DNA from: Ilex aquifolium
Taxonomy: Eukaryota; Streptophyta; Magnoliopsida; Aquifoliales; Aquifoliaceae
Assembly: GCA_951799425.1 (NCBI GenBank)
Contig: OX637410.1
Coordinates: 4,464,001 to 4,528,000 of the forward strand
DNA length: 64,000 nt
Reading direction: 5' to 3'
The notes beneath the pieces are model-generated. The model saw nothing but the letters and a program-made list of their open reading frames with translations. It searched no databases and had not been told where the DNA came from. The position numbers and the translations under genes are program-made. The first letter of the stretch is position 1; each line of letters opens with the position of its first letter. Below, in pieces: positions 9,946 to 36,764 of this stretch.

Positions 9946-9951
9946 GGAGAG

Positions 9952-10728: not shown

Positions 10729-10873
10729 CTTTTATATTATTAGTAATGTAGAGTAATAATGTAATTACTCACAATGTCAATTTATTATAAATAAGAGAGG
10801 GTAGAGCAACATTGCCTCTTCTCTTTCTCTCTTCCTCCTTTCCTCTAACCCTAATATTGTTTTTACTATTTCA
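10729..10873 (+). repeat. copia LTR copy (right end)
   Basis: This is nearly a full LTR, from TTCTTTTATATTATTAG to TTTTTACTATTTCA, closely matching 5055-5205. The LINE sequence resumes immediately after it. Confidence 0.75.
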
Positions 10874-11547
10874 ACTGTCGCCAACTACCTTCTTTCTTCA
10901 ACAACACATTCACACTTATTCCTAAGATCACTATGTTCCCTTATAAAATCATCCATAATACCACCTGATGCTTCCAATGAATCGATTTCCTCAATTATTT
11001 TCAAAATAATTTATTGCTCCAATCTCATCTCTTCGAACAAGCTCTTATTCCACTCTATCACTTGTTGGGTAATAAATTTCAACATTTTTATGAACTAGAA
11101 ACCTTCTCAACCCTCCACATCTACCTTAGCCCACCAATTAACTACAGCTACACAAAAATAATCCACATGCTCTCAAATCTAAAAAGCACTTGGCCCCACT
11201 TAAACAAAGAAGTAACAAAAGACAACGGGCAATGATAAGAGATAGCCATAATTAAGAGCTCTTGTGTCACCTTTGGGAAAAGTTCTTCCCAACCTGAAAA
11301 AAGAGAAATCTATCCAATCTATTACAAATTAAGTTTTCTTCAAGAAGTTGGACCATCTAAAATTAGCATTCTGCAAGGGAGGATCAACAACAATGCAATC
11401 CGTAATGAACATATCAAATGTTCTCAGACTTCTTGTACTCCTAATGCCATTAAACTTTTTAGATACAAATATGACAACATTAAAGTCACCATTAGTGATC
11501 CAACTAGGACTACAAAGTCTGTAGAGATTATATAGCTCTCCCAAAAG
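10874..11547 (-). mobile_element. L1-type LINE, 5' portion (endonuclease side)
   Basis: This is the minus-strand continuation of the LINE at 2361-5054. It contains the endonuclease segment SWITNGDFNVV and VDPPLQNANFRWSN near 11340-11510, matching the GGDFNVV...DxPLxNxxFTWSN pattern of plant L1 endonucleases. It is separated from the RT part only by the copia insertion. Decayed. Confidence 0.75.
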
Positions 11548-13669: not shown

Positions 13670-13760
13670 CTTGCCAGCATGTCACACAAAAAGGATGACC
13701 ACAAGCAGCAGCATTCATCCTATCACAAGGAAAAGTTTCAAAGCAGATCCCACAAGTCAG
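13670..13760 (-). CDS. ARI exon 4 (start of RING1)
   Basis: This 91-bp exon encodes [10 protein letters not shown] and [11 protein letters not shown], the first zinc ligands of RING1 in RBR ligases. The acceptor is ...CATTTTGCCAG and the donor AAG|GTTTGT. It ends one base into a codon, normally the glycine after the tryptophan-containing motif. The next ARI exon is not found to the left. Confidence 0.85.
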
Positions 13761-16700
13761 CTGGCAAAATGAGTAGACATGTAAGTAGTAGTTTATACAA
13801 AGATGATAAAGGGTAATTCATCAGATTTCTACTTGTATAGTCAGAATCAAAATATCATGCACAACAACCACAAAGAGTTAATGAGTCCCAAATTAGTGGA
13901 TCACTTACCTCTTTAGCATTGAGAAATGGAACTGGTTTCTCCAGCAAGCCAACAGCCCTGCGTACCTTTTCTTCATCAGAAAACCATTCATCATTCACTT
14001 TACTGACACTCCTGTGAGTCCAAAGTCAGCCAAAACTATTTAGGACATTAACCCCCAAATGTCATTACAACCTCCATACAATAAAAACAAGAAGTAAAGG
14101 AAGATGCAAGGATTACAAGACTAAGAATCTGATAAACAGTAAAATTTGACTTCACATGTCATGTACTTGAACTAAAACCATTATACATGCATCAAATTGT
14201 ATATTATGCACTCGTGCACATTTAAATAATATTAGAACTCGAAAATTCCATGTTATCCTAAGTCACCACAAAGTACATTTCACAACAGGAAATCATATAG
14301 CAAAAACAAATTACCAATTATAGTGGCGAAGAAGGATGCCAGCAGCAACCTTTGAAATGGAAAGCACAGCGGATACTTTAATAATATTTTCCTCTTGGCA
14401 ATGCCGAATATCAGCTTCACTCAAAACGGTATAGCTTTGCTGAGACAAAAAAGTAAAGACATCTAAATTAATAAGTTCATTGACAATAATAGAATGACAG
14501 TTGATGGCAGACATTGTTCTAATTTCCTATGGGGTAAGCAAGTACATGCATGAAATGGACATTTGGTTATTTGAGCAGTCCACAAGGGATTAAAATTTAT
14601 TCATAGCACTAGGGCTGAAAAGAAAAGCTATCCATTTGTCATCAAAAATTAAAAGAAACGGATATAAAACAATCTGATGGAAAATGGCAACGTCCAATAA
14701 ATGTGTATAAAAGACGTGGGCTGGATGGTTCTAAGGTCCAAGCCTTAATTTGGCATATGTTGGATGATGTTGGGCCCACTTGGGATATTGACTAGACATG
14801 GGCTGATTTCTAAAAGTCTGCATGACTTTTCATTTGCCTTATGACCTTTCATTTAGTTTCATTAACCACAGATTTTCTATGCATGTATCAACAGATTCAT
14901 TCATCTACTTTTTTGGGAGTTAAAAAGTTTCAACATTAATTAGTTTATGAAGTCCTATATATTGATGTAACTTCAAGACTTTGAAGTATGATGAATGAAT
15001 ATATGAAATTTTCAAAAGCTTTCTAAGCTTTTAAAATTGTGTGATGCAATCCTTTCTTTGGTGTGATGCTAAAGAGCCCCTAGGTGTGAGGCCTAGAACT
15101 ATCTTCTCTTCCTTCTAATTCTCCTTCTTGTTTTTTATCACTGTATACTGTTCACTGTCTACTGTTCATCTACTGTTCAAGCACAGTTCATGCACTGTTC
15201 ACAGCCCTAAACAACCCTTAAACAGCCCATGTTTCAGTATTTCCCCTTTCCTTAGCCGCCTTCCAATTCTATCCTACATCATTTTTGGTATCAGAGCGAG
15301 GGTAGTACCATGACTACACGATCAGGCAGGCCTTTTAGAGGGAGATTGACAGATAATCAGCGAGATGAAATGCTATTCCGGATTACGGAACAGCTAAATG
15401 GTATAAGCATCCGAATGACCAACTTGGAGACTAGAATTGTTCAACCACTCAACAATGCAGCAGCCCATGAGCAAGGAGAAGCTGCTATCGAGGGTCATGT
15501 GGAAAATGAAAGAGTAGCAGAGGTGCAAGTCCCGAATCCTCCTCCAGTACGTGAATTACCGGTTGGGATACCACAACCTCCCATGCCAGAATGGACTAGA
15601 GAAGTGTTAGAAAGAGGACGGTATGAAACACATGATACGGCCGGAGATATCACAAAGAAGGTTAAAATGGAGGTTCTAGACTTTGAAGGTAAAATTAATC
15701 CTACGTTATTTTCTGATTGACTTGCTTCCATCGAGGAATATTTTGATTGGTTTGATATGACTGACGATTGACAAGCGAGATTTGCTAAGATGAAGCTTGT
15801 AGGATTAGCAAAAATTTGGTGGACAAGCATTGAAGGTGATTTTAGGCAATTGGGACAGCTACCAATTAGTACGTGGGAAGAGATGAAAGCTAAACTTCGG
15901 GAGAAGTACATGCCAGCAAATTACCATGAGAAATTGTGTGAACAACTCATAGAATTAAACCAAAATAGCATGACGGTGGCCGCATATATGCAGAAATTTG
16001 ATGAACTTAAAACAAGGAGTCAAGTGGTTGAAGATCCAAGTCAAACTCTTGCACGATTCAAGATGGATTTGAGGCCAAATATAAGGAGGGAGCTGCTTCG
16101 TCAACCCTTGTACAGTCTTGAACATGCTTTCCAGGTTGCTTTGGATATGGAAGAGTATTTGAAGTACCCAATTACGCGAAAGTATGGGTTTCAAGCTGGG
16201 GAGACAACATCAAAGAAGTACAATGATGCAAGTACCTTTCGGACCAATGGTTCTAAGCCATCTTCTCAAAACATGGCTGACCCAAAAGGCAAAGCTCACC
16301 CAACTAACAAATTGGGAGGAAAGAAAAGCAGGTGTTTCAAATGTGGGGAGACAGGTCACATGGTGTTTCAATGCCCAAAGAGAAACTTACATATGGGAGT
16401 GGAGCATAATAAGGAACCTGACCAACAACACCATGAGGATGAGGAGGAATGGTTTGATGTTGGGGCCTTCAATACTGATGATTTAGAAGACGAAGAGATT
16501 GACACTTCGTTGATTTCGGTTGTTAGGCGTATCCTTGCAGCCCCTAAAGTTGAGAAAGAAGATTGGAGGCGCACTTCTATTTTCCAGATGCTAGTTCGTT
16601 GTGGAGATCAAGCCCGTAAGCTTATTATTGACGGTGGCAGTTGCATGAATGTTGTATCATCATCCACGGTTGAGCGCCTTAAGCTTCTCATTCAACCACA

Positions 16701-19700
16701 TCCTCAGTCATATAAGGTAGCTTGGATTGACAGCACTTCTATTCCGATAACTCAACGATGTCTTGTCTCTATTCTTACGGTTCCTATAGTAATTCTATTT
16801 GGTGTGATGTGATTCTTATGAAAGTTACCCACATCCTCCTTGGAAGGCCTTGGCTTTATGATAGAGATGTACATCACTGTGGGAAACAAAATACATACTC
16901 TTTCTCATTTAACAACAAAGATTGTTTTGAAGCCGTTGACTATAGCTGAAATGGAGAAATTCAAAGAAAAGAAGTCGAAGGATGATACTGATGTTAAGCC
17001 AAAGTCCCTTCATGTTCTCACCAAGAAGCGCTTTTAACGAGAGAGCATGGAATAGGGGGTCATATATGTTGTGGTGATGAAAGAAGTATCAAAAACAAAA
17101 GCTGTTTTATCCACTGCAATACCACCGAAAGTGACTGAGCTATTATCTCACTTCTCTGATGTTGCACCCGAAGAGCTACCAAATGAACTTCCTCCGATGC
17201 GCAATGTCCAACATGCAATAGACCTCGTTCCAGGGTCACAATTGCCTAATCTTCCAGCCTATCGCATGAATCCAAGTGAACATGCAGAGGTTAAACGGCA
17301 AGTAGATGAGCTGCTGTCCAAGGGATTTATTCGTGAAAGTTTAAGCCCTTGTGATGTCCCCGCATTACTCACGCCAAAGAAATATGGCAGTTGGCGCATG
17401 TGTGTTGACAGTCGTGCTATAAACAAGATCACAATCAAATACCGATTCCCCATTCCAAGGCTTGATGATATGTTGGATATGTTGGCTAGTTCTTGTATAT
17501 TTTCAAAGATAGATCTAAAAAGTGGATACCATCAAATACGCATAAGACCAGGAGATGAATGGAAGACAGCTTTCAAAACATGGGATGGCCTCTATGAATG
17601 GCTAGTCATGCCATTCGATCTTACAAATGCCCCTAGTACCTTCATGCGCTTTATTGGTCAATTTCTGGTTGTCTACTTTGATGATATTCTAATATATAGC
17701 AAGACCAAGGAAGAACACATCTTTCATCTTCAACAAGTCTTGAGGGTTCTCCGCCACGAGAAGCTCTACATGAATTTAAAGAAGTGTTCTTTCATGAGCC
17801 CAAGTGTTCTATTTTTGGGCTTTGTTGTTTCATCTAAAGGAGTGGAGGCTGATCCAAGCAAGGTGAAAGTCATTCTAGATTGGCCGATTCCTAGTTCCTT
17901 GCATGAAGTACGAAGTTTTCATGGGTTAGCGACTTTTTAACGTTGCTTTATCAAGAATTTCAGAACAGTTATGGCACCTATAACTAACTGTATAAAGGCG
18001 GGACAGTTTGTTTGGACCAAAGTAGCAACAAAGGCCTTTGAAAAAATAAAGAAAATGATGACTGAAGCTCTAGTACTACATCTTCTTGATTTCTCAAAGG
18101 TGTTTGTGGTGGCTTGCGATGCATCCTATGTTGGGATTGGAGGTGTGCTTACTCAAGAAGGGCACCCGGTTGCTTACTTCAGTGAAAAGCTCAACGAAGC
18201 CAAGCAAAAGTATTCTACCCATGACAAGGAGTTCTATGCAGTAATACAAGCACTTCGGTATTGGCGCCACTATCTTCTTTTTAAGGAGTTTGTGCTGTAT
18301 TCCGACCATGAAGCACTCAAATACATTAACTCTCAAAAGAAATTGAATCAGCGGCATGGTAAATGGGTCTCATTTCTGCAAGAGTACTCTTTTGTTATCA
18401 AACATAAAGCTGGTTATGAGAATAAGGCAGCTGATGCACTTAGCCGAGTGGTGTATGTTCTTTCTTCCATGGCGATACAAGTTATGGATTCTGATTTGCT
18501 CAAAGGGGACTATCCTTCTTGCAAGGATTTCAGAGTTATACATGCTAAGTTATTGGCTAGACAGCAGGGAGGATATGATGATTTCTCCTTAAATGACGGC
18601 TACCTCTTCAAGGGAACCCGACTTTGCTTACCCGACACTTCTCTTCGTGAACAAGTGGTTTGAGAATTACATTCTGGAGGGGCAGCTGGTCATTTTGGAA
18701 GAGATAAGACAGTTGCAATGGCTGAAGATCGCTTTTATTGGCCAAAGCTGAAGCGGGATGTAGCCAAGATAGTTTCACAGTGTCGAACTTGCAAACTTTC
18801 AAAAGGAAGAAAGAAGAATACTGGTTTATACACCCCACTACCTGTGCCACACAAGCCATGGCAGGATTTAAGTATGGATTTTGTCCTTGGATTGCCCAAA
18901 ACCCTTCGAGGACACGACTCCATTTATGTGGTTGTGGATCGCTTCTCAAAAATGGCTCACTTTATTCCTTGTTCAAAGACATCCAATGTTGTTCACATTG
19001 CTAAGCTTTTCTTTAAAGAAGTTATTCATCTTCACGGATTACCTCGAACTATTGTATCTGATCGTGATGTGAAGTTCGTAAGTTATTTTTGGCGTACTCT
19101 ATGGAAGTTGCTGCATAGATGGCTGAAGTTTTCTTCCGCTTTCCATCCGCAAATTGATGATCAAACGAAGGTTGTCAACCGCAGTTTGGGAGACCTAATT
19201 CGCTGCCTTGGAGGGGATCATGTTAGTAGTTGGGATCAGGTACTTCCTACGGCTGAATTCGCATATAATAGCTCTGTCAATAGATCTACAGGTCGCAGGC
19301 CATTTGAGATTGTTACAGGTTTGCTTCCTAGAAAGCCAATTGATTTAGTTTCGTTACCTATCGAGGCTCGCCCAAGTGCTAAAGCTGAAGCCTTTAGCAA
19401 GCATATTTTTTATATACATGTTGAGGTTCGACGAAAGATTGTCATAAGCAATGAGAGCTACAAACAACATGCTGATTTAAGGAGAAGGTTTGCTGAATTC
19501 GAGGAAGGAGACATGGTTATGGTCCAAGTGAGGCCTGAGCGGTATCCTATAGGTGCTTATAAGAAGCTTCATTCAAAGAGTGCTGGTCCATTTAAGGTTC
19601 TCAAGAAAATTAGCTCCAATGCTTACGTTCTTGACTTACCTGAAGATATGGGCATCAGTAATGTCTTGAATATTGAGGACCTTACTAAATACCCTGGATA

Positions 19701-22700
19701 CACCATCAATGGTGTACACCCTGATCCAGTTACTTCTCTCACAAGCCACATATTTAAGGGATAAAATTGAAGACGTGGTTGATCATCAGATTGTTTCAAC
19801 TAGAAGTGGTGGTTATCAGAAATATCTCGTTAAATGGAAGGGGCGTCCACTTTTTAGATTGCACCTGGATTACCGACGAACAGTTCCAACATCTCAACCT
19901 TCTCTCAAGCCGGGGAGAGTTGATGGAAAATGGCAATGTCCAATAAAGGTGTATAAAAGACGTGGGCTAGATGGCTCTAAGGCCCAAGCCTTAATTTGGC
20001 ATATGTTGGATGATGTTGGGCCCACTTGGGATATTGACTAGACATGGACTGATTTCTAAAAATCTGCATGACTTTTCATTTGCCTTATGACCTTTCATTT
20101 AGTTACATTAACCACAAGTTTTCTATGCATGTATCCACAGATTCATTCATCTATCTTTTTGGGAGTTGAAAAGTTTCAACATTAATTAGTTTCTGAAGTC
20201 CTATATATTGATGTAACTTCAAGACTTTGAAGTATGATGAATGAATATATGAAATTTTCAGAAGCTTTTCTAAACTTTTAAGATTGTGTGATGGAATCCT
20301 TTCTTTGGTGTGATGCTAAAGAGCCCCTAGGTGTGAGGCCTATAACTATCTTCTCTGCTCACGTACTGTTCACATATTGTTCACGTACTGTTCACGCATT
20401 GTTCATGCACTGTTCACAGCCCTAAACAACCCCTGTTTCAGTATTTCCCCTTGTTTCAATATTTCCCCTTTCTTTAGCCGCCTTCTAATTCTGTCATACA
20501 TCACAGTCATTACAAGCAACGGATAGATATAGAAAAAGCCTTATGTACACTAACTAATCAGGGGCAGTACATTTTTATTAGCACTAGAACAATAAGTATG
20601 GAACAAAGAATTGACAATTGTTGAACACCATGTGGTGTAGTTAACTAGTTCATACATGCTCCTCGTCAACCTCATTGGGAGGCTGTCTGCCGCATACTTC
20701 GATACCTGAAAGAAGCTCTAGGGAAATGATTGTTATATCATCCATCATCACCCATAACTATTGTTGGTTTTTCTAATGCTGACTGGACAGGTAGTCATGG
20801 TGATAGACGATCTACATCTAGCTACTGTACGTTTATTTGAAATAATCTTGTTACTTGGCGTAGTAAGAAGCAGAATATGGTTGCATGCTCTAGTGCGGAG
20901 GGTGAATATCGTGCTATGGCCCATACTGTTTGTAAGATGTTATGGCTCCATTCTTTGCTCCGTGATATGGGACTTGATGTGTCTTCATCTATGAAGATGC
21001 ATTGTGACAATCAAGTTGCGATTTTCATTGCTAGTAATCCGGTATTTCATGAGCGTACCAAACACATTGAGATGGATTGTCCTTTCATCAAAGATCTATT
21101 AATGAAAAAGGAGATCGTCACTCCACATATTAAGTCTGGTGATCAACTGGGTGACATTCTTCCCATACCATTGGCTCAACCGACCTTTAGTAATTTATGT
21201 TCCAAGTTGGGCATTTTTTATCTTTATGCTCCAGTTTGAGGGGGGTGTTAGAGTTCTTATTTTATGTATTAAATCATAAGTCTATTAGTGTAGGGTAATA
21301 TTGGAATTACCTAAAATATTGCTCAGTTATAAATAAGATGGTGTAGGACAACATAGCCTACACACAACTGATTCATTATTCTCTGTCTATTCTTTATTCT
21401 CCTTATCTTCTCTTTTCTCCGTATTTCTCTAACCCTAATATTAATTTATTACTTTCAACTCTTTTATTTCCTCTGTTATAGCTTCTCTCCATTTAGAATC
21501 ACTAAGTGCCTCTTTCCAACCCTAAGTAATAGATACGAAAGACAAGAAAGAAACAAAAGTACGATAGGATGAACACAGGAAATCATAACAGACAAAACTA
21601 GAGACAGGATGTTGAGTACAAGCTCCAACACCCTTTCTGACTACAATAGAAATATCAGAGTCATCAACAACTGGATTATTAATAACAGGAGTAACATCTG
21701 GAGGTTCATTACCTGATAAATCAATAAAAGATGAAACTGGAGTTAAAGAATCCGACTGCTGCAGCGGCACATGGGTATTATGTACTTTTTGACGCCGATA
21801 ATAAGTCTTCAAGATTTTTCTTGTGAATGTGAACACTATGTGGATCACTACCATCACCTTTTTTCTCCATAAATTGTTGTTTCATTAACTAACATTCCAC
21901 CGAACAGACAATTGAAGAAGAGGTTCCTGACAAAACATCCCTTCCCCTATAGTGGTATTCTCCCCTAAAAGAGATGTCAAGGTAGTAGAGAAGGACACAA
22001 ATTCACAAAAAGTAACATCCATGCTAACATACATTTTCTGTGACTTTGGATGATAACATTTATATCACTTTTGGGTGGCAGAATAACCAACAAAAACACA
22101 TCTGAGGTCAAGTTTTCCCCTAGAGGGTCTGTAATCGTCTACAAAACACACCCAAAAGCTTTAAGGGAAAGGGAAGAAATATAAGGAATAAAAAAAGATT
22201 CAGAAAGGCAGCCGATAGAAGACTTAAACTAAAGGACTCGAGGGTAGACAATTAATAAGATAAGCAACAGTAAGAACTGCATCCCTCCAAAAATATTAAG
22301 AAACATTCATAGTAAACATCAATGAGTGAGCAACCTAAAGAAGATGACAATTTTTCCGCTCAACAACACCATTTTACTCAGGAGTACTCACACATGTAGT
22401 TTGATGTTGGATGCCATTTTCATTTAGATAATAACGTTCCCCATCAATATACTCGATTCCATTATCACATCAAAGAATTTTGACTTTGGCGTAAACTGAG
22501 CACTCACCATTTTATGGAAAGATCTAAAGCATGAGAAAACTTCACCTTTACTGCATAGTAGATAAAACCAAGTAAGACGAGAATAACAATCAATAAAGGT
22601 AACAAACCCATGGTAACTACAAGTAGACACAGCACGACAAGGACCCCACACATCTGAATGAATAATGACAAAAGGTGCAGTGCTTCAATGGTTAGTACTA

Positions 22701-25700
22701 GGATAAAATGAACGCTCATCCTTGGCTAATTAACAAGCATCACAAACAAAAGATTGTCTATTACACTACTTCACTAGACTAGAAAAAATATGCTCTAAAA
22801 CACCAAATAAGGGATGCTCCAAACGTTTATGCCACTGATGTAAGAGCTAAAAGGCTGAAACACCATCTGCATGAAAAGATTGACAGATAGACTAAGAATA
22901 AGCTTAGTGGATACAGTTGGTTGCCATGATTTAAGTGGTGAGATCTCTGGGGAGTTAATTTTTCCCTTAATTGATAAGGCCATTGCTATTTCAAAAGGAG
23001 TTCAAATAGGAGATGGAAAGAATAACAATAGGGGTCCTTATTAGCAGAAGCTTTTTATCCACCAAGTCCAGAAGGTAGGTTCACAAAAGATGTGGGGACT
23101 TAAGACCTTTCTATGAAAGCCCAAGTAATATTGAGGTCCAGTGGGCAACTTCAACATCCAAGAGGTACAAACCACCATGTGCTTTACCACTACCAATCGT
23201 TTTCCCTAATTCTGGTTCCTAGAAGATGCAATAAGTAGGAAAAAAAGTAACTGAACAATTTAAGAATTTGGTAATACTACTAACAAAGTCACAGACAATA
23301 AACTAGTGAAAAAATTGGAAACATGAAGAACAAATGAGAGAGATAAAGAGGGAGAACAATTAACTGAACATTTCCCAAAAATAGAGGATAAAGATCCATC
23401 AGCCACCTTAACTTTATCCTAGCAGAACAAGTAGAATGTGAAGAGAAAAGACTAGAAAAACCCGTCATGTGATCCGTAGCTCCAGAATCTATTATCCAAG
23501 AAGTATATGAGGATGATGCAGTAAACACACTATCAGATATATTTGTATGAGCAAAATTGGAAGAAGAGGTAGGATTAAGAGATGTAGCAAAGGAAATATC
23601 AAGTCAAGACATCACGCGAAATTACCATATGTTACACTCCCTTCCGACATGTCCACACAATAAGGTTAAACAATTAAAACGACAAGTCACAAAACCAATA
23701 GAATAGCCACTACTTCCAATAGTAGCCAAAAATACACAAAACCAATAAGCAAATACAGCCCGAGTAATATCCCTCAACTTGATAAAAAAAAAAAAAAAAA
23801 AACCTCGACAATGGCTAAACAAATTTTTGGACGGCGGTAGAAGCAAAATATGAGGTTGCCGAAGTAGAAAAAAGGTAGGAACAGTGATGTCGAGCCTAAA
23901 AAATGGCCAAAAATGTCATAATCCAATCCAAATGCAACAAATCTCTCTAGTTAAGTTAAACTGCCTCCAGTTGCACCTCATAGAATAGGATTGACCACAA
24001 AAAAAGCAATTCTAGAGCAAAAAAAAAGGCCATTGGACAGCCAAAAACCCAATACCGGCAGCAAGAAGTCCCTAAAAAATTGCATAGATCCAACCTAAAT
24101 GCAACAAAGGGAACTGGGCATCACTTATAAGCCCTTATCGCACCCCAATCAAATAGGTTTGGCTCAAAAATAGCTCCCCAAAACTCTGAATCTACAGATC
24201 TGAGAAGAAAAATACTACCAAAGAAGTAGCCCACAACCAAAATTTACTCCAATAGCAGCCAAAAAGTACCAGTGGAACAACCCGAAGCAAAAGCAAACTT
24301 GGAAGAGCCTCTGTGAAGCAACCAAAGCAAACCAGGTCCCTGAAGCACCAACAATGGTGCCGAGGGTCTGTGAAGGAAAAAAAATCCACCGAAAATCACT
24401 CCAACTGCAACAAGGGATGATGGGCACAACATAAGAGCCCTAGTCAAGCCTATTCAAACAGATTCAACTCAAAAAAATAGCCAGATTGCTAAAAAAACAG
24501 ACCAGATCTGGAAATCGAGTCAAAAAATCAAAAATATATATATATTAAAAAAATCCAAAAAAATTCAAAGATATAGTTGAAGAATCCTTCTAGAAATCAA
24601 AAAATTGTGATACAAGTTGATGCTAACGTCAGCATGTCAGTGCTTGACGGGCGTCAATATTTGTTGTGAGACACAATTTTCGATGAATTCCAACAACTTT
24701 GATGCGTTAGATTTGATTTTTGCTCTAATACCAAGTTAGATTGTGAGACCGTGAGGTTTAGGAAACGAATAGAAAGTGAAAAAGAAAAGAATATGGAAGA
24801 GGGTAGTGTATTAGGTTACACAGCTACACCAACTTTTTATATATAATCACAAAGTACAAAACTGTCCTTACTCTAGAAATAACACATAATATAACAAAAC
24901 ACAATATTTATCTTGTACCTAAGCGTAAGGCATAGAAAAGATATAGTGGATTAAGCAACAAGGATTATATGTACAGAATGTGTTTAAAGACATCAGAACA
25001 TGGGACGAGATTAAACAAGCTAGGGCTGAACATCTCCTGTTTCCAAACCACAAGTGACGAAATCATATTTTGCTCATTAGTTTACAACAAGAAATTTCGT
25101 CAACGAAACACAGCTATGGTTTCTATGATTTAGCTACCAAATCGGATTGTGCATGGAACTTGCAATACAAAGAAAAGGTTGGTTGGAAACAGCAACATTA
25201 CCAGCCACTTGTCACTTAAGCAATACAAGCAATGGAGATAGCATATCAAAATGGGGAAGAACTAGAAAAGAAGTCTTAGTAAAGGCAACCTTCCAATATT
25301 AGACTAAAAAAGGAGACATGATTTAAGTTTGCTTTACTTACAAAAGCTCCTAAAGAAGTTTAGGAATGGGTCTTTCCCTACTAATTGGTTCAAAGTTGGA
25401 GGGAATTAAAACAAGAACAAACATTGCTTAATCCAAAATCGAAGGGAACTATAGCAAGGGCGAACCTTACCTAATCATTCAATTCTCAAATGACAGTTGG
25501 ACGTAAGAAGAAACTATGCAAAGGACAATCGATCCCTATACCTACACTACTGCAGCATCCCATGACGAAGTGAAGATGAAGAAGTAAGGAGCGGGAAGCC
25601 AGGCTGCCATAAGTCACACGTGGCTTGGTTGAGGAACATCATTTATATAACTCATGAGACACATTTGCTTACCTATTCAATTGGTGGGTCAATCAACATT

Positions 25701-28700
25701 GTGAATATAGAACATCAAATCAAACTTGATCTACTTCAGTCTGAGTCCAGTGCTATAAAATAGGAGAAGATATGATCATGTGCTAGATATATAGTATGAA
25801 ACCAATTGTATATGCTATCAGTCAATTTTAGGAGTCTTGTAGCCATACACTTATGCTCCGTTTGGTACGCTGGAAAAATGGAAGGATGGAAAGTTGGAAG
25901 GATGGAAAGTTAGAGGGATAGATAAAACATCATGTTTGGTAAGGAAGGAAAGTAGGAAGGATGGAAAAGTGGATGAATTAACTTTCCTTCCAACTCACTA
26001 AAATCAATCCCTCCAAAATCGGAAGGAAAGTTGATGGAAAGTTAATTATTTGTGTTGAGATGTATGTTATATGTCTATATATCTTTTAATATATACATAT
26101 ATTATATATACATTAATTTCATATAAAAATACAATGATAAAATATGTATTTATATATATATTTTTTAAAAAAATTAAAAATTAAAAATTAAAATTAAAAT
26201 TAAAAATTAAAAATTAAAAATTAAAAATTAAAAATTAAAAATTAAAAATTAAAAATTAAAAATTAAAAAATTAAAAAATTAAAAAATAAACAGGTCAACT
26301 CGCAACTCGACACAACACAATTAGTTAAATGAGTTGATTTAGGTTTGACTAATGTTAGACATAAACCCGTAATGACTCAACACGAATCTGACACGACACG
26401 ACTCGATTGTCACCCCTAATCTTAGCCAGTACAAAAAAAAAAAAAAAATTAGTCATTTTTACTTTCCATCCATCCAACCAAACACAACGAAAGAAAACTG
26501 TATCCCTCCTACTTTCCTTCCTTGAAGGATAGAAAGTGCATCCCTCCTGCTTTTCATCCTTCCTACCAAACGGAGCATTAGGATCAAAACAGTTGTAAAT
26601 CAAGTATAAATACTTGTACTTGCTATCTGATAATTGATATGAGAAATAATACATTTTCCTATTATTCTACATGGTATCAGAGTAGCAAGACAAATGTCCA
26701 ACCAAGATGTCTTCTCCTAACTCCTCTTTTGACAAACGTCCAACCAAGATGTCTTCTCCTAACTCCTCTACCTCAAATGAAACTGCTCAACCCTCTCTCC
26801 CAACCTTCTCTACCACTCCAAACACTATCACGGCCAAACTGACCCAACCTAATTATCCTCTTAGAAAGCACAAGTTGTGCCCTACTTCCGTGGCCAAGGT
26901 GTATTTGGCTACATCGTTGGAACGATCCCTGCTCCTCCTGCAACTGTTGATGCTCTTCATCCAGAGACTTATGCTATTTCTGCTGTACCAAATACTGCCT
27001 ACGAAACTTGGATGAAATAGGATGCTCTTGTTTTGAGCATTCTCCTCTCTACACTGACAGACAGTGTTCTTATCCAAGTTCTTTCTTATAATACTTCCAC
27101 ATAGGTCTGTGAGGCCCTTGAGCAAAATTTTGCTTCTATTTCTCGTGCAAAAGCAGTTCAAATTCGAACTCAATTGGCAACTGCTCGCAAGGGTTCCATG
27201 TCTACCAATGACTACTACTTACATATCAAAAAGCTTGCTGATGAACTTGCAATTGCAGGGCAATCTCTCACCAGTGATGATATCATCACATATGTTCTTG
27301 CAGGACTTGGACATGACTACGACACTCTTGTCTCCACAATTACACCCCGCAAAGATCCAATAACCTTAGAAGAGGTTTAATCACTTCTCCTGATCAATGA
27401 GCCTCGAACCCAATCTCTCAATCAACCCCTTTCCCTCAATGGTTCAGCTAACGTTACCACCAAACAGAACAATCAAAACTACAACAGAGGCTGTGGCGGT
27501 GGTGGAGGCAACAGAGGAAGGGGTCGCAATGGTGGTCCCAGAATAGGCTACAACAACAACTCCAACAATGCTCATCCCCCTACTTCTGGACAGCATAGCC
27601 GTAAACCTGTGTTTTGTCAAGTCTGTGACAAACTAGGGCACTCGGCTAAGAAGTGCTTCCACAAGTTTGACATAACCTACCAGGACAACCAACCCACTCG
27701 ACATCCCCAACAATGATGGCTACGAACCAGCATCATGCAGACAAGAAGTGGCATCCCGACACTAAAGCCACTCATCATCTCACAAATGATATGGCTAATC
27801 TAAATCTCAGGCATGATGACTATGATGGTGACGATCAGATCCAAGTGGGGAATGGTCCCGGTTTGAGAATTTCTAAAACTGGAACCTCTCTTATTTCCAC
27901 TGCCTCTAAATCCTTCATACTAAATCAAGTGCTTTTGATCCCTGATATTCAAAATTCTTTAATATCTATTCATAAATTCTTCTTTACAATCATGTCTACT
28001 TTGAATTTCATGATTTCTTTTTCCTTGTCAAGGTCTACTCAGGGACCATCCCCTCCACAGAGGGCACAGACCAAGACTCTCAGACTATTCTTCCTACTAA
28101 TATAAATATCTCTCCTTGTCTTTCTCCTCCAACTAATAATCGTGCAGGTTCCACTCGATCTCTCTCATTACCTCTACTTCAGGATTTGACAGTTCAACCT
28201 CACCGTCCTCATTCCAGAGATACAAAACCAGAAGTTCCAGCAAGGGATGTTGCATCAGAATCTGCTTCTGCCCGAGTTAATAGTCACATACCTCAAGAAC
28301 CTCAACCTCCTTCAGAACAGTAAAGACCAGCACCACCTTCTCACCATATGGTCACACAATCAAGGAACAATGTACTTAAAACCAGAAAATTCACAGATGG
28401 CCGAATCAGGTATCCTCTGCCCAAAGCACTCATAGCTGCCATTACTTCACCAGAACTTGAGCCAACATCATATATAGAGGCTTCCAGGTCTCCTAATTGG
28501 CGCATGGCAATGAATCAAGAGTTCGATGCATTACTAAAGAATGGCACTTGGTCTCTAGTGCCACCAAGATTTAATCTGAACATTGTAGGTAGCAGACGGG
28601 TCGACAAAGTCAAAAGAGAGGCAAATGGAACAATAGATAGGCATAAAGCACATCTAGTAGCCAAGGGCTACCATCAACAAGAAGGTTTTGACTTCAATGA

Positions 28701-31700
28701 AACCTTTAGTCCTGACATAAAGCATTCTACAGTTCGTTTAGCATTATCTATTGTAGTTTCTCAAGGCTAGAAATTGAGACAAATAGACATACTTTCCGCA
28801 TGGTTTGTTAGAAGAAGAGGTCTACATGACACAATCTTCGGGTTATCAGCATCCACAGTATCCTAATCACATCTACAAGCTCCTTAAATCACTGTATAGT
28901 CTACGGCAAGCACCTAGAGCTTGGTTCTCTAGGCTGACTGACAACTTGCGTGAACTATGTTTTCATGTAAGCAAAGCTGATAGTTCTTTGTACATCTATT
29001 GGAAACAAAAGGAAGTCATTTACTTCCTCATTTACATGGATGATATCATAGTTACTGGTTCAAGTTCTGCTGCTGCAAATAGAGTTATTGCACAGCTCCA
29101 TCGTGACTTTTGCAGTAAAAGATCTTGGGGAGTTGAGAGCTTCTTCCTTGGAGTGGAAGCTTTACCACATGCGGAAGGTTTGTATCTCACACAAAGTTAG
29201 TATATAGTTGATTTGCTTCGAAGGTCAGACATGGACAAAGCAAAACCTTGCCTAAGTCCCATGTCTACTACCTGTTCTCTCACGGCTAAAAAAGGTGAAG
29301 ATTTTGATGACCCTCATCTCTATCGAACTGTGGTAGGGGGCTGCAATATTTAGCTTTTACAAGGCCAGACATTGCCTTTTCAGTTCACAAAGTAAGCAAG
29401 TTCATGCACAAACCCAAACAACTTCATTGACAAGCAGTTAAAAGAGTTATACGCTATCTAAAACAAACTATTTCTTATGGCTTTCTTATTCGAAGAAGTT
29501 CACAAATGGTTTTCGAAGCATTCTCAGATGGCTCTAGGCTAGAGACAAAGATGATAGGAGGCCAGTTGGTGCTTATTGTGTTGTTTTTAGGCGATAACAT
29601 CATCTCCTGGAGGTGCAAACAGCAACAAGCTATTGCTAGAAGTAGTACTGAGGCAGAGTATAAATCCTGAGCTAACACAGCAGAAGAGTTACAATGGTTG
29701 CAGTCTGTTATGCTTGAACTTGGATATCAGTGTCCACAGCCCCCAATTTTATACTACGACAACATTGGAGCTACATACTTAACAGCTAATCTTGTCTTTC
29801 ACGCTAGAACAAAGCATATAGTGGTTGATTTTCAATTTATGAGGGATCAAGTTGTCAACAAGAAGATCAATGTTCGTTTTATCTGCAGCAAAGTGCAACA
29901 AAGATCAACTCGCAGATATGCTCACCAAGCCACCGTCCACCACTTGGTTTAATTTCTTACGAAACAATCTCAATGTTCGAGAATTGCCATTCAGATTGAG
30001 GGGGCGTATAGAAGATCAAGTCAACCTTGATCTACTTCAAACTGAGTCCAGTGCTATAAAATAGGAGAAGATATGATCCCGTGCTAAATATATAGTATGA
30101 AACCAATTGTAGGAGTCTTGTAGCCATACACTTAGGACCAAAACAATTGTAAATCAAGTATAAATACTTGTACTTGCTATCTTATAATAGATATGAGAAA
30201 TAATACCTTTTCTTATTATTCTAAATTGAAGAATGATATCCTACTGCTGGCATATTCATCAGGGACCTTGCAGGTGTTTTGCCAGAAAAGGCCACCAGAA
30301 TGTCATCACATCACATATAAATTGGGGAACAAAAGGGATTGGATAAGATTAAATTAAAGAATTAAATTTTATTAAATATTCTATTATTATATTATTTTTG
30401 GAATATTTGTTTGACTAGAATGTTTAGTAATTTTGATAGAAGAGTCTAGTTAGGAAACTACCTATTTTGATAAAAGATTTTAATTAGGAAACTACCTATT
30501 TTGATAAAAGATTTAAATATTGATGTAATCTCTACTATTTCATTAGAGAGTGATATTAAGAAACTTGTTTCTTTGTGGAGAAATTGTGTTTCTTAACATG
30601 ATCCTTGCGAGGGTTTGGTACCTCTTAGTTCTTTCTTCTCCCCTCTCCCATCCAGAGAGCAAAACTCCAATCCAACAGCCTTCCTCTCCTACTTTGGTAT
30701 CATCTTCCAATGTATCAAAAGATTCAAAACAGGTGTTGCAATCACACGAATCAGTTGTGGCTGATTGAAGAAGAAATATGACTATCTGTTGTTAAAGAGT
30801 CTTGATTGTTAGGTCTAGATCACGCTCAACAACCTTATGTTCATGGTCCAGCAATTTCGTGACTCCTTGCTCAAGAGAAAATTTTCAAATCTCTACTTTC
30901 ATCAAGATGTTGACCGGCGCCGAATTACTTGCAAAGATTGACATATGTGATGCTAAGATATATTTACCCCAAGCATCAACAGATTCACTCCAAGAATCAG
31001 GGAATTCACTCCAACCATCAGTGAACTCAATAAAGAAAGTATAACCAAGCTGGTTGCTATCCATGGAGTTATGTTGGCCATTAACAAGTGTTTGAACAAG
31101 ATAGATACTGATTTATCCTCTTCATTCATTAGTCATCAACAAATGGTTATGCAACCACAAGCTCTAGTCTGACAATCAAAAACTATCCAATGTTGATGAG
31201 CCCAAAAGTTGTCCTCAACCTACATTGATTGTTTTTGATAATACAATTTTAAAGGGTGTTGATACCGATGAAGTTAAACAAGTTTCGAAAGTAGTTTCTT
31301 TAGATAGGGTTGCTACTTTTTCACCACCAATTCTTATTCTTTCTTTATCACCATCCTTTATAGGGAACAAAATGTGAAGGTTATGGAGATTCAAGACATA
31401 GATATTCTTTCTTTATCACCATCCTTTGTATGGAACAAAATGTGAAGGTTATGGAGATTCAAGATATAGATTTCTCTCATTGTGATACCAAGTATTATCT
31501 CGTTTAAGAGAGATTTTGTCCCCATGTTATCAAGATGGAGGATCCATTTTGTCAACTGACGTCGATTCTCTTGGAGTGCTCTTGTTATTAGAACTTCTCG
31601 CGAATCGATGGGGATTGAAAAGGGATTGAATAAATTTAAATTGAAGAATTGAATTTTACTATCTATTTTAGTATTACATTATTTAGGGAATATTTGTTTA

Positions 31701-33721
31701 ACTGAGAGTGTTCAATAATTTTGAATTAGTTAGAAAACTACCTCTTTTGATATAAAATTTTAATGAGAAAAAAATTGTTTCTTTATGGAGAACTTGTGCG
31801 TTTTGTAACCTTATCCTTACAAGGGGGTTTGGTACCTCTTAATTCATTTTTCTACTCTTTTTTCTTGTCCTGCATGACTTGTCAGGTTAGAAGCTTATCC
31901 TTAACACTCTCATCCAACGGTATTTCAGGCTTGATAATGTGAAGCTACAGAATATTGTAGGATCAATGATATGAAGATCAAAATAATTGCAAGCTATTGG
32001 TGTCCCAGATACATAACTCAATCTTCATAAACTGCATTTTGTCAAAGATACTTAATCCAGCCCCTTTATTGACAAATCAAATAACTCTTAGAGGAAAAGA
32101 GATTTGTAACCTATGGTTGTTCAAGAAATCCCTAATTTTCCTCCCAAGCCACTCATCTATCCATTTCCTAGTACCCCATATCTTTCATATTCAATCTGGT
32201 CCCTTAATCATCATTAAATCCTAAATCTTTAAAATATTTCACTTAGCCAATCATCCCTTTCAACTTGCACAAAGAAGATTCCTAGCAATTATCTGGTATC
32301 CACATTATTTTGTTAATGTTATGTTCAACTCATGAGGATGCATCACTCGCCTACGCAAAAATGGCAAAGGAAAAATAACAAATACATGGGAGTTATAAGC
32401 CTCATGTAACATTGAGTACTCAAAGGTTTAATCTCATGTTTTGCAAAGAGTACATTCAAATCGATATTTTGGTTGATGCTTTAATGTTTCTGGTCCTCTT
32501 ACATTCAAAATAAGCTTGATAAGCACATATGCCGAAACATAGGACAGTCTCTCATGCTAATGATAAGTGTATTCAGACGTCAACTGAAAGGGTGCATGAT
32601 GTCATGTTCACCAATGTCCAACACTTCATTGGACAATTATTGAAGTATTCACTTCCCTTCATTTAAGAAAAAGCCAAATTTTCATCCTATAATCAAAACA
32701 AACGTGAACATGGACAAATATGTGCAACTAAAAGAACGAACTCAAAATATCTCAATGGTGATCATGATGCAGCCCAAGAAAACAACACCTATTTAAGTTC
32801 CAAAACTTATTAGAAAAATTCGCCAATTGTCAGCTTCTAAACATCCATGCACATCTTAATCCTCAAAACACAAAACCATTGTTCTATAAACCATAATCAT
32901 CATCTGTAATATGTAGGGTCTGTCATTCTAAACCAATCTTTATTAAACAAAAAAAATTAGCTAAAAACACTTCACAGGTTTACATTTTATAGTTAATACA
33001 GGAATAAAACTATTAACAGAATATATCTCGGTCAATTTACCTATCAAATTCATCTAAAAACTATTAGGGCCAAGCCAATAATCAGCTTATTATCTGTATC
33101 CCACTTTTTGATTTACCACTTAAAACTCAGCCAGCTTCAATTCAATCAACGTAAACCCAAATATCTTGAACCTGAAAATAGTAAATCCGACTACATTTCC
33201 ACTCAAATGGTGGGCCATTATGTTCCCTTGTCTCACCTTAGGGGGAGAACTAGGAAGAGTTTATGTGGATTGACAGCTCCTATCCTAGCAGCTAGTAGTC
33301 CTATCCTATCTAGCGGACAATGGGCATTCTCGTCCGAGGGACCCTTATTTACTTTACTCAGATTGCTGGACAGACCAGGCTCATCCTTTTATGTTGAGGT
33401 GTTAATCGATCAATTAAGACTCAATCAGCCAGCTTCAGTTCAATCAATCTAAAACCAAGCCTTCATTTGTTATCGAACTAAAAACAAATAGATCTTCAAA
33501 GCACAATCATTATAATAAAAAATTGAAAAGAAAGAGAAAATCATTGGCTTTTGGATTGATACCTGATAGCGATGAGATAGGACATCGTCGGAATCATCGG
33601 AGTCATTGTCCATGAACTCGTAGTCCATGGCGTTGGCATCATCAGATTCAACGGCTGTCTCGCCGCTATAGAAGTCGTCATCGAAAGATTCTGCGTCGTG
33701 CATATCATCCTCTGATTCCAT
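13670..33721 (-). CDS. ARIADNE-like RBR E3 ubiquitin ligase, N-terminal exons (gene model)
   Basis: The proposed CDS joins 33721-33563, 14439-14315, 14011-13909 and 13760-13670 on the minus strand. All visible junctions are GT-AG, and the frame is continuous for 159 codons. The protein has an acidic N-terminus, the conserved ARI block [11 protein letters not shown]...LLRHYNW...[11 protein letters not shown], and the first RING1 ligands CGICF, CGHPFC and TCW. In plants and animals ARI proteins take ubiquitin from an E2 onto a RING2 cysteine and pass it to substrates, often with cullin partners. IBR, catalytic RING2 and Ariadne domain are absent from the window. The frame is intact, so this is either a real gene with very large introns or a partial paralogue. 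Confidence 0.85.
13909..14011 (-). CDS. ARI exon 3
   Basis: This 103-bp exon completes the split tryptophan codon, then encodes 34 residues including [20 protein letters not shown], the signature just before RING1 in plant ARI proteins. The acceptor is ...ACTCACAG and the donor GAG|GTAAGT, both strong. Confidence 0.9.
14315..14439 (-). CDS. ARI exon 2
   Basis: This 125-bp exon encodes [18 protein letters not shown], then the helical [17 protein letters not shown] block, as in plant ARI5/7/8-like proteins. The acceptor is TTTTGTCTCAG and the donor TTG|GTAATT. RHCQ replaces the more usual RQRQ, suggesting a somewhat divergent copy. Confidence 0.9.
14675..15281 (+). repeat. gypsy 5' LTR
   Basis: It runs from TGATGGAAAATGGCAACG to CCTACATCA, 607 bp, matching 19921-20503. 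The primer site TGGTATCAGAGC follows at 15286-15297 (tRNA-Met type). Near its 3' end are several copies of ACTGTTCA. Confidence 0.9.
15310..19915 (+). pseudogene. gypsy gag-pol with chromodomain
   Basis: Domains in order: gag from the ATG at 15310 with zinc knuckle [14 protein letters not shown] near 16331-16372; protease [11 protein letters not shown] near 16624-16656; RT near 17200-17940 with YFDDILIYS near 17674; RNase H near 18080-18450 ending [10 protein letters not shown]; integrase near 18700-19350 with MDFVLGLP and IVSDRDVKF; and a chromodomain ([14 protein letters not shown]) near 19805-19850. The chromodomain frame stays open into the 3' LTR, as seen in some chromovirus lineages. 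Fossil, several breaks. Confidence 0.9.
19921..20503 (+). repeat. gypsy 3' LTR
   Basis: It starts TGATGGAAAATGGCAATG after the purine tract CCGGGGAGAGT and ends CATACATCA, 583 bp. It differs from the 5' LTR in the number of ACTGTTCA-like units. Confidence 0.9.
20504..20631. other. residual intron sequence
   Basis: Sequence between the gypsy right end and a copia fragment; no feature recognised. It should have been contiguous with the sequence left of 14675 before the gypsy inserted. Confidence 0.5.
20632..21457 (+). mobile_element. Ty1/copia 3' end fragment (RNase H plus 3' LTR)
   Basis: It starts inside the RT/RNase H border (VVNxFMHAPR-like reading, parallel to 8930-8970), continues through RNase H motifs [18 protein letters not shown] and [13 protein letters not shown], and ends with an LTR at 21246-21457. 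It is the same broad family as the copia at 5055-10873. Truncated fossil. Confidence 0.8.
21246..21457 (+). repeat. copia 3' LTR
   Basis: It begins TGTTAGAGTTCTTATT after TTTGAGGGGGG (polypurine tract) and ends TTTATTACTTTCA. It shares start, ATAAATAAGA core and CTCTAACCCTAATATT end with the LTRs at 5055 and 10729. Confidence 0.75.
21522..23600 (-). pseudogene. copia protease-integrase remains
   Basis: Minus-strand frames carry [14 protein letters not shown] (aspartic protease region) and [16 protein letters not shown] (integrase core), followed by the low-complexity linker before RT with [12 protein letters not shown]. These are standard copia features. The reading is interrupted several times; fossil. 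Confidence 0.75.
24738..24905 (-). repeat. probable copia 5' LTR
   Basis: An AT-rich segment lies directly upstream (minus strand) of the primer site TTGGTATTAGAGC. It has a promoter-like TTATATATAAT-like stretch near 24835-24848. The partner LTR is absent, so the outer edge is approximate. Confidence 0.5.
24906..25705. other. ARI intron sequence, nothing recognised
   Basis: About 800 bp between two copia elements. I see no open frame of note, no domain motif and no repeat structure. Confidence 0.4.
25854..26577. mobile_element. PIF/Harbinger (Tourist)-like MITE
   Basis: The terminal inverted repeats are TGCTCCGTTTGGTA at the left and TACCAAACGGAGCA at the right. The flanking TTA on both sides (25851-25853, 26578-26580) is the 3-bp duplication typical of PIF/Harbinger. 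The 3' LTR at about 30125-30160 preserves the empty site. The interior has subterminal GGAAGGATGGAAAGT repeats and an AAAATT array; no coding capacity. Confidence 0.85.
26165..26290. repeat. AAAATTA microsatellite
   Basis: Reiterated AAATT/AAAAATT units inside the MITE, roughly 125 bp. Confidence 0.85.
26700..29990 (+). pseudogene. copia gag-pol remains
   Basis: Gag begins near 26709 (MSSPNSS...) with the capsid-like segment near 26830-27380 and zinc knuckle [14 protein letters not shown] near 27617-27658. A protease-like [11 protein letters not shown] lies near 27750-27785. RT runs near 28480-29200 with [20 protein letters not shown] and [11 protein letters not shown]. RNase H lies near 29480-29990 with [20 protein letters not shown]. 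Domain order is that of copia. Fossil, broken in several places. Confidence 0.85.
30007..30225 (+). repeat. copia 3' LTR
   Basis: 219 bp following GAGGGGGCG; matches the split 5' LTR at 25706-26671 and lacks the MITE. Confidence 0.85.
30320..31835 (+). mobile_element. candidate short non-autonomous LTR-like element
   Basis: Two imperfect direct repeats (about 30320-30635 and 31605-31835) share GGGATTG..ATAA..TTAAATT, GGAATATTTGTTT, AAACTACCT.TTTTGAT and GGGTTTGGTACCTCTTA. About 970 bp lie between them without recognisable gag or pol. The arrangement suggests a TRIM- or LARD-like element. Terminal TG/CA, target duplication and primer site could not be fixed, so boundaries are approximate. Confidence 0.45.
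31331..31475. repeat. tandem duplication of about 73 bp
   Basis: Two nearly identical copies contain TTCTTTCTTTATCACCATCC and then AATGTGAAGGTTATGGAGAT, within the interior of the candidate short LTR-like element. Confidence 0.8.
31836..33562. other. ARI intron 1 proximal part
   Basis: Mostly unclassified sequence next to ARI exon 1. The only structure seen is a pair of imperfect direct repeats (AGCCAGCTTCAATTCAATCA near 33129 and AGCCAGCTTCAGTTCAATCA near 33429) enclosing about 280 bp. No gene recognised. Confidence 0.45.
33563..33721 (-). CDS. ARI exon 1 (start codon, acidic N-terminus)
   Basis: The 159-bp exon starts at the ATG whose complement lies at 33719-33721 and encodes 53 residues, starting [12 protein letters not shown] and ending [12 protein letters not shown]. 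Strings of Asp and Glu followed by SHR/YQ are the typical N-terminus of plant ARI proteins. The donor is CAG|GTATCA. The start is chosen because the acidic leader begins at once and the length matches the family. Confidence 0.9.
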
Positions 33722-33990
33722 CTTCGCTATTCAAATCCGACCAAGCCCTACAACAATTGGAATTGATATCAAGCTGAAGAAACACGTACTATTATTCTCT
33801 CGTTCTCTCTTTAGAGAAGGTACAATTATTGAGGTTGTAGATTTGGGTACGTACGTAAGCTCCGATATTGATCGGAAAATGAGAGAGAGAGAGAGATGAC
33901 TTTTTAGCTTTTTGATGGTGTACAAGGACTCGGGCGAAGAAAAAAGGAAAGAAATGGCGAACAAAAAAGGCTGCGTTTGGACATTTAATT
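33722..33990 (-). promoter_or_regulatory. presumed ARI 5' UTR and core promoter
   Basis: Upstream of the ARI start codon on the minus strand lies a CTCTCTCTCTCTC pyrimidine patch (33881-33894), common near plant transcription starts, followed by GTACGTACGTAA-like sequence and an AT-rich leader. No TATA box is obvious. A poly-T tract of over 20 bases at about 33989-34011 ends the region. Inferred from position only. Confidence 0.4.
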
Positions 33991-34844
33991 TTTTTTTTTT
34001 TTTTTTTTTTTTGCAGGAGTGGCTGTCTCCCAACGGGCTCAAATTTGAGATAATGGAATGGGGTACCTTTTTCAAAACTTAGTTGGCTTTAAGTTCAATC
34101 TCCAAACTTATTCTCCTTTAAGTCCTATAATTGATGACTTATTTGTCAATAAGTACACATTTTAAAAAAAATCAAATTCTTTTTGAAATGTATTCCATAT
34201 TTTACCCCTACCATAAATAGTTCATACCTAATAGACAACTTTTATTTTTCCAATATCTAAATATTAGAATGTGAGACTTTCAAGAGTCATTTTGATATTT
34301 GTGTATCATTTGAATTTTGAAATTTCAAAACATATTGGTATTTCTGTAACACCCCGCATTTTCTTTTATATATGTATATAGATATATAGTAAATAATTGT
34401 TGTAAAAATGTGGATATGTAGAGTGACGGTAGGAATAAAAACAAAAACAAAAACTAGAGATACAAATTGATTAGGAAGTTAAGTTTCGAAGGTGTAAACT
34501 TGAGAAGAGTGATTATGGAAGTTTCTAAATATTGTTAGGTCAAAATAAGTTCTCCATTGAATCTGGAAGGTCGAAAAATATTGGGAGAGGTAATGTGGGT
34601 GTATTGGAAGTTAGGAAGTATTCCGGAGTGAAAACACACTTTGAGAGAATTTGGGTAGAAGAATTTTAGACACTGTCTTAGTGTTTGGTTCATAACTTTT
34701 TATCCTAACTTCCATTTGATCTGAAATTTTGACAGTAGATAGGAGACTTCCAGGGCTACAAAAGTATATTTCACGAAAAATTTCCAAATCAATCTCTAAA
34801 TAGGCCAAAACTTCACTGGAAGTTTCAGCAAAAACAGGAATTCC

Positions 34845-34980
34845 GTTCGAACGTGAAATGACATTCGAACGTGAATCGACGTTCGAACGTGAATAAACGT
34901 TCGAATAAAAGTGCGTTCCAGTACTCTTGTCTGATGGAAAAACAGAAGTACTAGGAGCAACGACCGTTCGAACGCCAATG
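34845..34980. repeat. CGTTCGAACG palindrome cluster (outer solo LTR)
   Basis: Four or five copies or near-copies of CGTTCGAACGTGAA within about 135 bp of the outer solo LTR. Confidence 0.8.
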
Positions 34981-36764
34981 ACGAATCTGAGTCACAAGAG
35001 ACAATTTCTCACCCTATAAATACATAAGGATGCCTCTCTTTACATCATTTCAACATTTCTAACCCTAGGAAGACTTAGAGAGGAGGAAAGAAGGGGAAAA
35101 CACAAGATCAAGGGAGGATTTACACATTGAAGAGGATCAAAACTTCAAGTTTTTCAAGAACACTAAGGAAGAAGAAAGTAGGGGTTTTCTTCCATTCTTT
35201 TACATTGAGGCTAGGTTTATTTATATGTATCTCTTCGCTCTAAATGTTATATGTATGCTATCCAAATCCTTAATTCTTGCTATTCTTGCAATTAATGTCA
35301 TGTGAAAAATATTGCGATTGTTGGGTAACCCTTAAATCTCCTTACTGGCTACCAAACCCTAGTCTTCAAGGGAAATGTGTTTTTCTCTTGACTTCTCCTT
35401 TGTTATTGATTTCAATACATGATTGTTTCTTTGTTTTGAATTCTAAGCTTGATATTCAATACTTGATATTCTTTATTCTTGGTTCCAAGACTTGAGTGTT
35501 CTTTTAGTCTTGATTTCTAAGCTTCATAATCATTTGTTCTTGATTTCACACCTTGATAGTCGTTCGTTATTTATTTCCATACATGATTGTTCCGTTAAAT
35601 CTTAATTTCTCCTTTGTCCATGATTTTCAAGCTTAGTGCGCCTTTATTCTTTATACTCCAAGCTTAATATTCATTTGTAATGATTCCAAAGTTGGATTAC
35701 TCATAGGTTCTTGATTTCAAAACTTTAGTATTTCATATTGAACAACAAAATGGTATTTATGATGATCTCTTATACATTTTCTTATATTGCTCTTTGTACA
35801 ACTACGTGAGAAAATTGGGGGTTTATGGAATTGTTTGTTAATTGAGGAAATTGTGGATATCGTACTTCTTGTTTGATTGTTTGGAGGAACATGGGTGAGA
35901 GGTTCCTTGTAAGGATGCTCATTCATTCTCAAGAGGTTCCCGGTAAGGATACTGTAACGCCCCAAATACCACCCTGGACGGCATTACCCTATGAAACCAT
36001 TCATGTCATGAGAGCAACTAAATATATATCCATCAACTAAGAAACATTCTTAATTTTAACAAAATTTGGGCAGAGTCTCCTTTGTACAGGAAGCTCCACC
36101 CAAAAATCACAACCTGTACGTTTATAATGCATTGACCACACCGGGTCTATCTAACCATCAAATCCAAAACATTTTATTCACCATATATACTATCCTTAAC
36201 ATTATCCCAAAAGAATAAGCCAAACCATGGCCATTTACATCCCAAAAGAATTATATGTAACTTCGCAGCGGAATAACAAAAGCATAAACCATACATAGTC
36301 TCAAAATACATTCTCTAGTCTAAAACGTAAGGAAATATAATCCTACACAACCGTCTCAGGATCTATGTTCCCATCCATCGAAGCCTCCCAATGCTCTGGC
36401 TCGTCAGCTCTGAACTCCTCTCCTAGCACATAATCTGAAAAATATTGTTTGTAGGGGGGTGAGCACTAGGCTCCGTAGCAACATTCCTCCCAAACTCAAA
36501 CAAGGTTTTGAAAAGCATTTAAAAAGGTCGGTCTCACTTTTCACAAATAGCATATATATAACATTTGAAAGAAAACAGGACATTTTCAAGTAGATCTCAA
36601 GTTTAAGGAACAACGGTAATTGAATGAGTAAAAGAAACCACTATACATTTATCAAACCATTTCCAAATATAATCCAGTCCTCCATTCACAATTTCCAACA
36701 ATTCTTTCGGTGGGTGGCATACTTTAGGGTAACCTCCACCCCCCGTTTAGGTCATCTTTGATTC

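Follow-up and report, generated by a model that had tools for sequence, protein, structure and literature searches.

Four exons of a probable Ariadne-type gene in Ilex aquifolium, with a 19-kb first intron holding nested transposons

In a 64,000-nucleotide stretch of the Ilex aquifolium genome (assembly GCA_951799425.1, contig OX637410.1, positions 4,464,001 to 4,528,000 of the forward strand; hereafter the window, numbered from its first base), we analyzed a minus-strand chain of four exons that encodes the N-terminus of an Ariadne protein. The exons are probably the first four of a plant Ariadne (RING-between-RING, RBR) E3 ligase gene of the ARI5/7/8 type, a tentative subgroup label that we take from the probe sequence. 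We think it reasonably probable that the locus is a live or recently live Ariadne gene that runs off the window, with nested retrotransposons having inflated introns 1 and 4. We favor this reading because of the following features: (i) four homologous exons follow one another collinearly on a single strand, their phases agree, and their splice-site bases are intact; (ii) exon 4 is followed by a phase-1 GT donor, its six zinc ligands are kept, and the sequence downstream is filled like intron 1; and (iii) a dead copy would have survived since the gypsy insertion in intron 1 with a probability of about 0.06-0.16 when insertions and deletions (indels) are modelled, and CpG content at the 5' end is high relative to the window. 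A 5'-truncated copy, over which we favor the reading with two giant introns, is a possibility of lesser weight.

Exon chain and encoded Ariadne N-terminus

The chain consists of the following features, in which a slash marks the exon-intron boundary:

33563-33721, minus strand: exon 1 (159 bp, 53 codons), ATG and acidic N-terminal leader; ends in phase 0 (CAG/GTATCA); tblastn 48.9 bits
14440-33562, minus strand: intron 1 (19,123 bp), about 67% assigned to transposons, 54% firmly
14315-14439, minus strand: exon 2 (125 bp), bulk of the UBA-like domain (PF21235); ends in phase 2; 62.4 bits
13909-14011, minus strand: exon 3 (103 bp), end of the UBA-like domain and linker; ends in phase 0; 51.2 bits, the alignment overrunning the exon
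13670-13760, minus strand: exon 4 (91 bp), first half of RING1 with six zinc ligands; ends in phase 1; 56.6 bits
1-13669, minus strand: intron 4 (at least 13.67 kb, continuing past the window edge) or the flank of a truncated gene; no ARI exon found

Joined, the four exons give 478 bp, i.e., 159 full codons plus one base, free of stops and with intron phases of 0, 2, 0, and 1. GT and AG bases are in place at the exact positions of the junctions 33563/14439, 14315/14011, and 13909/13760, and exon 4 closes on a fourth GT donor in phase 1 (CAAG/GTTTGT); unspliced read-through past exon 4 would add the four residues GLFQ, the first codon of which is split by the donor, before a stop. An initial annotation, made from the sequence alone, had proposed four in-frame minus-strand exons of about 90-160 bp, intact and joined through GT-AG sites over 20 kb, and in each of these respects it was correct: all coordinates and junction bases hold, the lengths are 91-159 bp, and the frame is open throughout.

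The encoded product comprises an acidic leader, a UBA-like domain, and six RING1 zinc ligands. The UBA-like domain, which is N-terminal to RING1, was recognized by the Pfam model PF21235 UBA_ARI1 (E 1.4e-8, 34.8 bits; cut-off 26.9). The RING models of Pfam stayed below their cut-offs on the exon-4 product; all six of the zinc ligands expected from this exon are kept, and the last two of RING1 are expected in a later exon. Among proteins of solved structure, the best relatives were human ARIH2 (E 4.7e-8) and then ARIH1 (E about 5e-7). The same acidic leader, UBA-like domain, and first RING1 half with its zinc ligands are found in the plant ARI7/ARI8-type RBR ligases as well as in human ARIH1/ARIH2.

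As a tblastn probe we employed a whole-length ARI8-like sequence that was itself recognized as an entire Ariadne protein. Each exon matched it separately (48.9, 62.4, 51.2, and 56.6 bits for exons 1 to 4, at 48-66% identity), and exons 1 and 2 join in phase at the matching position of the probe. The next-best match in the window reached 23.5 bits (E 1.0). Because the exons scored 48.9-62.4 bits, against at most 26.6 bits for the top probe score in 40 Markov-shuffled windows, the four-exon similarity to Ariadne is not due to chance. Together with the UBA_ARI1 and ARIH2/ARIH1 matches, these per-exon scores bear out the proposal of an ARI N-terminus, and the alignment to an ARI-type protein that had been suggested as a check came out positive for every exon. 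Scans of viral and prokaryote contigs for a relative gave 4 and 29 pattern matches, respectively, with 0 confirmed.

CpG content distinguishes the 5' end from the intron that follows it, with observed/expected ratios of 1.39 in exon 1 and 0.43 in intron 1. For exon 1 together with its 5' flank (33563-33960) the ratio was 1.31, a value reached in 7 of 1273 windows of 398 bp. This high 5' CpG level relative to the window is suggestive of a promoter region that has not long been methylated.

Transposon content and age of intron 1

Elements could be assigned to 12,905 of the 19,123 bp of intron 1 (67%). The firm share is 10,350 bp (54%), made up of a gypsy and the larger copia with its miniature inverted-repeat transposable element (MITE), and the rest is weaker. 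LTR denotes long terminal repeat, and K denotes divergence.

14675-20503, plus strand (antisense to the gene): gypsy LTR retrotransposon, LTRs at 14675-15281 and 19921-20503
20659-21378, plus strand: probable copia 3' remnant, about 69% DNA similarity to 9420-10056; no Pfam match
23292-23603, minus strand (sense to the gene): probable copia protease-region remnant, PF22936 Pol_BBD at 25.5 bits, below the cut-off of 27
25706-30226, plus strand: copia with gag, protease-region, and reverse transcriptase pieces; LTR K 0.072 over 220 sites
25854-26577, no strand assigned: MITE of 724 bp interrupting the left copia LTR, its 14-bp terminal inverted repeats flanked by TTA target duplications
30331-31853, no strand assigned: candidate short LTR-like element, the direct repeats of which (30331-30639 and 31618-31853) differ by K 0.18

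The gypsy sits 235 bp upstream of exon 2. Its gag, reverse transcriptase, RNase H, and integrase were recognized, with the core of the integrase scoring under the threshold, and stops interrupt the coding frame of the element. The bases flanking it (CAATC and CAGTC) match at 4 of 5 positions, and LTR divergence is K 0.083 on 575 sites and K 0.052 when restricted to the 438 that align well. In the copia at 25706-30226, the right LTR shows the insertion site of the MITE uninterrupted. The contents listed by the initial annotation for this intron (a gypsy, three copia pieces, a MITE, and a candidate short LTR-like element) are thus all present, the first two copia pieces being weakly supported. 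Its statement that everything around the exons is transposon was too sweeping: about one-third of intron 1 is unassigned, and introns 2 and 3 (303 and 148 bp) gave no repeat match when compared within the window.

Two further observations concern these elements. The middle of the MITE (26001-26548) is the most CpG-rich stretch of the window, with observed/expected values of up to 2.1 in 398-bp windows. In addition, the sole Rfam match in the window to reach the gathering threshold (27264-27402, plus strand; RF00321 snoZ247, 39.9 bits, cut-off 38) lies within a copia gag coding region (PF14223, E 1e-8 for the frame around it), and we therefore rejected an intronic small RNA at this position. 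The RF00321 consensus is itself one open frame of 46 codons, and its sole Pfam match, a weak one (E 0.15), falls on almost identical positions of that gag family's profile. For this reason retrotransposon coding DNA, and not a small nucleolar RNA, may underlie the Rfam snoZ247 family. A search judged by title found no published report of snoZ247 misannotation.

Plant substitution rates of 0.7-1.3e-8 per site per year are commonly used; they date the gypsy to about 2-6 million years ago and the copia at 25706-30226 to about 3-5 million years ago. We simulated the fate of a dead copy, comprising the 478-bp frame and 14 splice-site bases (seven dinucleotides), at a per-lineage divergence of about 0.026-0.04. 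When indels were set to be one tenth as frequent as substitutions, such a copy remained intact since the gypsy insertion with a probability of about 0.16-0.06. Intactness leans toward function while the elements were inserting, cannot separate present function from recent loss, and is weak evidence of selection.

Downstream region and weighing of the readings

What the initial annotation omitted is that the remainder of the ligase was not found in the window. Its designation of the locus as a ubiquitin-ligase gene stands in part: the Ariadne start is present, and it amounts to 159 residues of a protein that we take, from the length of the probe, to have about 575, with RING1 partial. In contrast to Ariadne RBR ligases, the 64 kb yielded no end of RING1, no IBR, no RING2 with its catalytic cysteine, and no Ariadne domain by tblastn, but the gene may extend past the edge. 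Beyond exon 4, the probe gave nothing over 23.5 bits in six frames of the whole window, including the 13.67 kb downstream. The power of this search was estimated by planting the remaining protein as 11 pieces of one length, about 37 residues each, with 15 replicates at every identity level and detection counted at an E of at most 0.01. At 57% identity a mean of 10.7 of the 11 pieces was detected (minimum 10), and at 40% identity a mean of 7.6 (minimum 6); a real exon much shorter than about 37 residues could escape singly, but not all eleven. As nearly all simulated exons of like divergence were recovered, it is very probable that the 13.67 kb downstream lacks exons 5 onwards.

The filling of this downstream region resembles that of intron 1, with a probable long interspersed nuclear element (LINE) carrying a nested copia, followed by a copia gag-like frame that, by eye, crosses the left edge of the window:

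5063-10876, plus strand: copia with LTRs of about 150 bp, K 0.088, apparently nested in the minus-strand LINE
4331-4729, minus strand: probable LINE, reverse transcriptase-like piece, 22.7 bits, below the cut-off of 29.6
near 11547-11332, minus strand: probable LINE, endonuclease-like part, assigned by eye

On the reading with two giant introns, the gene would be at least 33.7 kb long and would extend beyond the left edge of the window. The silenced elements would be transcribed by RNA polymerase II, and the spliceosome would connect 33563 with 14439, 14315 with 14011, and 13909 with 13760, and then 13670 with an exon 5 outside the window. In Arabidopsis, transcribing heterochromatic introns to full length depends on IBM2 and EDM2, and a like step would operate here. 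The exons, frame, splice-site bases, and transposon content are read directly from the DNA; from these we infer transcription, splicing, exons 5 onwards, and ligase activity.

Transposon-inflated introns in live plant genes are already well documented, including in one other RBR gene. In soybean, Ariadne B genes have at most 15 exons, and GmARA54, an RBR gene with an expressed sequence tag (EST), carries a Ty1-copia element in an intron of >5 kb (PMC3904995). There, as at the present locus, a retrotransposon enlarges an RBR-gene intron and leaves the splice sites untouched; GmARA54 has one element, an intron of about 5 kb, and evidence of expression, whereas the present locus has several elements and an intron of 19 kb. 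Large grapevine introns found from ESTs consist of >80% repetitive elements and are likewise rich in LTR elements and LINEs (PMC3058033). In Arabidopsis, IBM2 and EDM2 assist the splicing of introns of >10 kb that harbor silenced T-DNA inserts (PMC5364540), and Le et al. described heterochromatic marks retained inside transcribed genes (PMC4417168). The grapevine and Arabidopsis cases rest on transcripts or mutants, in contrast to the DNA evidence presented here.

Several results weigh against the reading with two giant introns. By tblastn, neither strand of the 64 kb gave a match to an exon for the RING1 end, IBR, RING2, or Ariadne domain, and, if the gene has 15 exons, about 11 later ones would be lacking in 13.67 kb. 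The CpG excess of the 5' region over its own base composition was not significant (p 0.06-0.08), and exons 3 and 4 are CpG-poor (0.25 and 0.0), at least as low as the transposons. Moreover, when indels were left out of the dead-copy simulation, the probability of remaining intact rose to 0.43-0.29. The suggestion of selection or very recent loss in the initial annotation is not shown: at the age of the gypsy, about 6-16% of simulated unselected frames came through by chance when indels were included, and 29-43% when they were not. Finally, one Arabidopsis T-DNA intron of >20 kb was never restored (PMC5364540), which counts against easy splicing of a 19-kb intron.

The main alternative is a 5' fragment, i.e., a duplicated or broken Ariadne copy that ends after exon 4 and would be silent or yield a short, ligase-inactive N-terminal protein; we regard it as possible, although not as the preferred account. 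It would explain why no later exon was seen in 64 kb by a search that recovered, at 57% identity, an average of 10.7 of 11 simulated exons, and the intactness of the frame over a short term is cheap by chance. A precedent exists in the Hypericum apospory (HAPPY) locus, where a truncated ARI-T without matching transcripts adjoins an expressed ARI7-like gene (PMC6543059, PMC4451943). Hypericum, like the present window as far as it reaches, shows a partial ARI gene in a transposon-bearing region, and the two differ in that a fuller ARI gene adjoins ARI-T in Hypericum. Two points speak against a fragment: intron 1 has taken up at least 10 kb of dated insertions with no damage to the frame or the splice-site bases, the exon-4 donor included, and the filling downstream of exon 4 is like that of intron 1. 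A related proposal is that the locus makes a spliced, ligase-dead N-terminal Ariadne protein (leader, UBA-like domain, and half of RING1) as a regulatory by-product of transposon truncation, and it can be likened to the truncated apospory-linked ARI allele of Hypericum. That allele reportedly makes a truncated product; for the present locus we give such a protein little credence.

Capture or carriage of the exons by a transposon of the Pack-MULE or Helitron type, instead of a resident gene, is also improbable. The exons do sit among transposons, and MuDR-type transposase pieces lie at 40089-42063; however, no inverted repeats with arms of at least 60 nt bracket the exons in positions 1-40000 (shorter ends and Helitron ends were not searched), exons 1 and 2 are 19 kb apart with nested elements between them, and introns 2 and 3 are of normal length. 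Least credible is chance similarity or an assembly join of unrelated pieces. Nested repeats are typical misjoin spots, and 19 kb of mostly repeats part exon 1 from exon 2, yet each exon far exceeds the best score from shuffled windows, and exons 1 and 2 meet in phase at matching protein positions. On balance we retain the reading of a gene with two giant introns.

Wider surroundings and significance

Upstream of the gene, a sequence that is repeated at 50789 and 57807, beside and inside a young gypsy, starts at 34341, 620 bp from the ATG. Those window open reading frames of at least 150 codons that were inspected were transposon-like or unassigned. The other features noted are as follows:

34341-39137: clustered copies, inverted and direct, some of them related to the young gypsy LTR; the cluster starts about 0.6 kb upstream of the ARI start codon
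40089-42063, plus strand: MuDR-type transposase pieces (DBD_Tnp_Mut, SWIM zinc finger)
42250-42872: tandem repeats adjoining the MuDR-type pieces
44257-45673: A+T-rich, diverged tandem array, most copies being about 69-83% alike
51329-59828, plus strand: young gypsy, 1,721-bp LTRs 99.1% identical (K 0.009) and containing tandem repeats of about 80 bp

The locus adds at most one roughly dated example of retrotransposons stretching the intron of a conserved ubiquitin ligase, with the exons that are seen undamaged. Neither a live gene nor a truncated one would alter the general view. If truncated, the locus would be one further partial ARI copy; if expressed, it could be used to test how plants transcribe across silenced transposons that span tens of kilobases.

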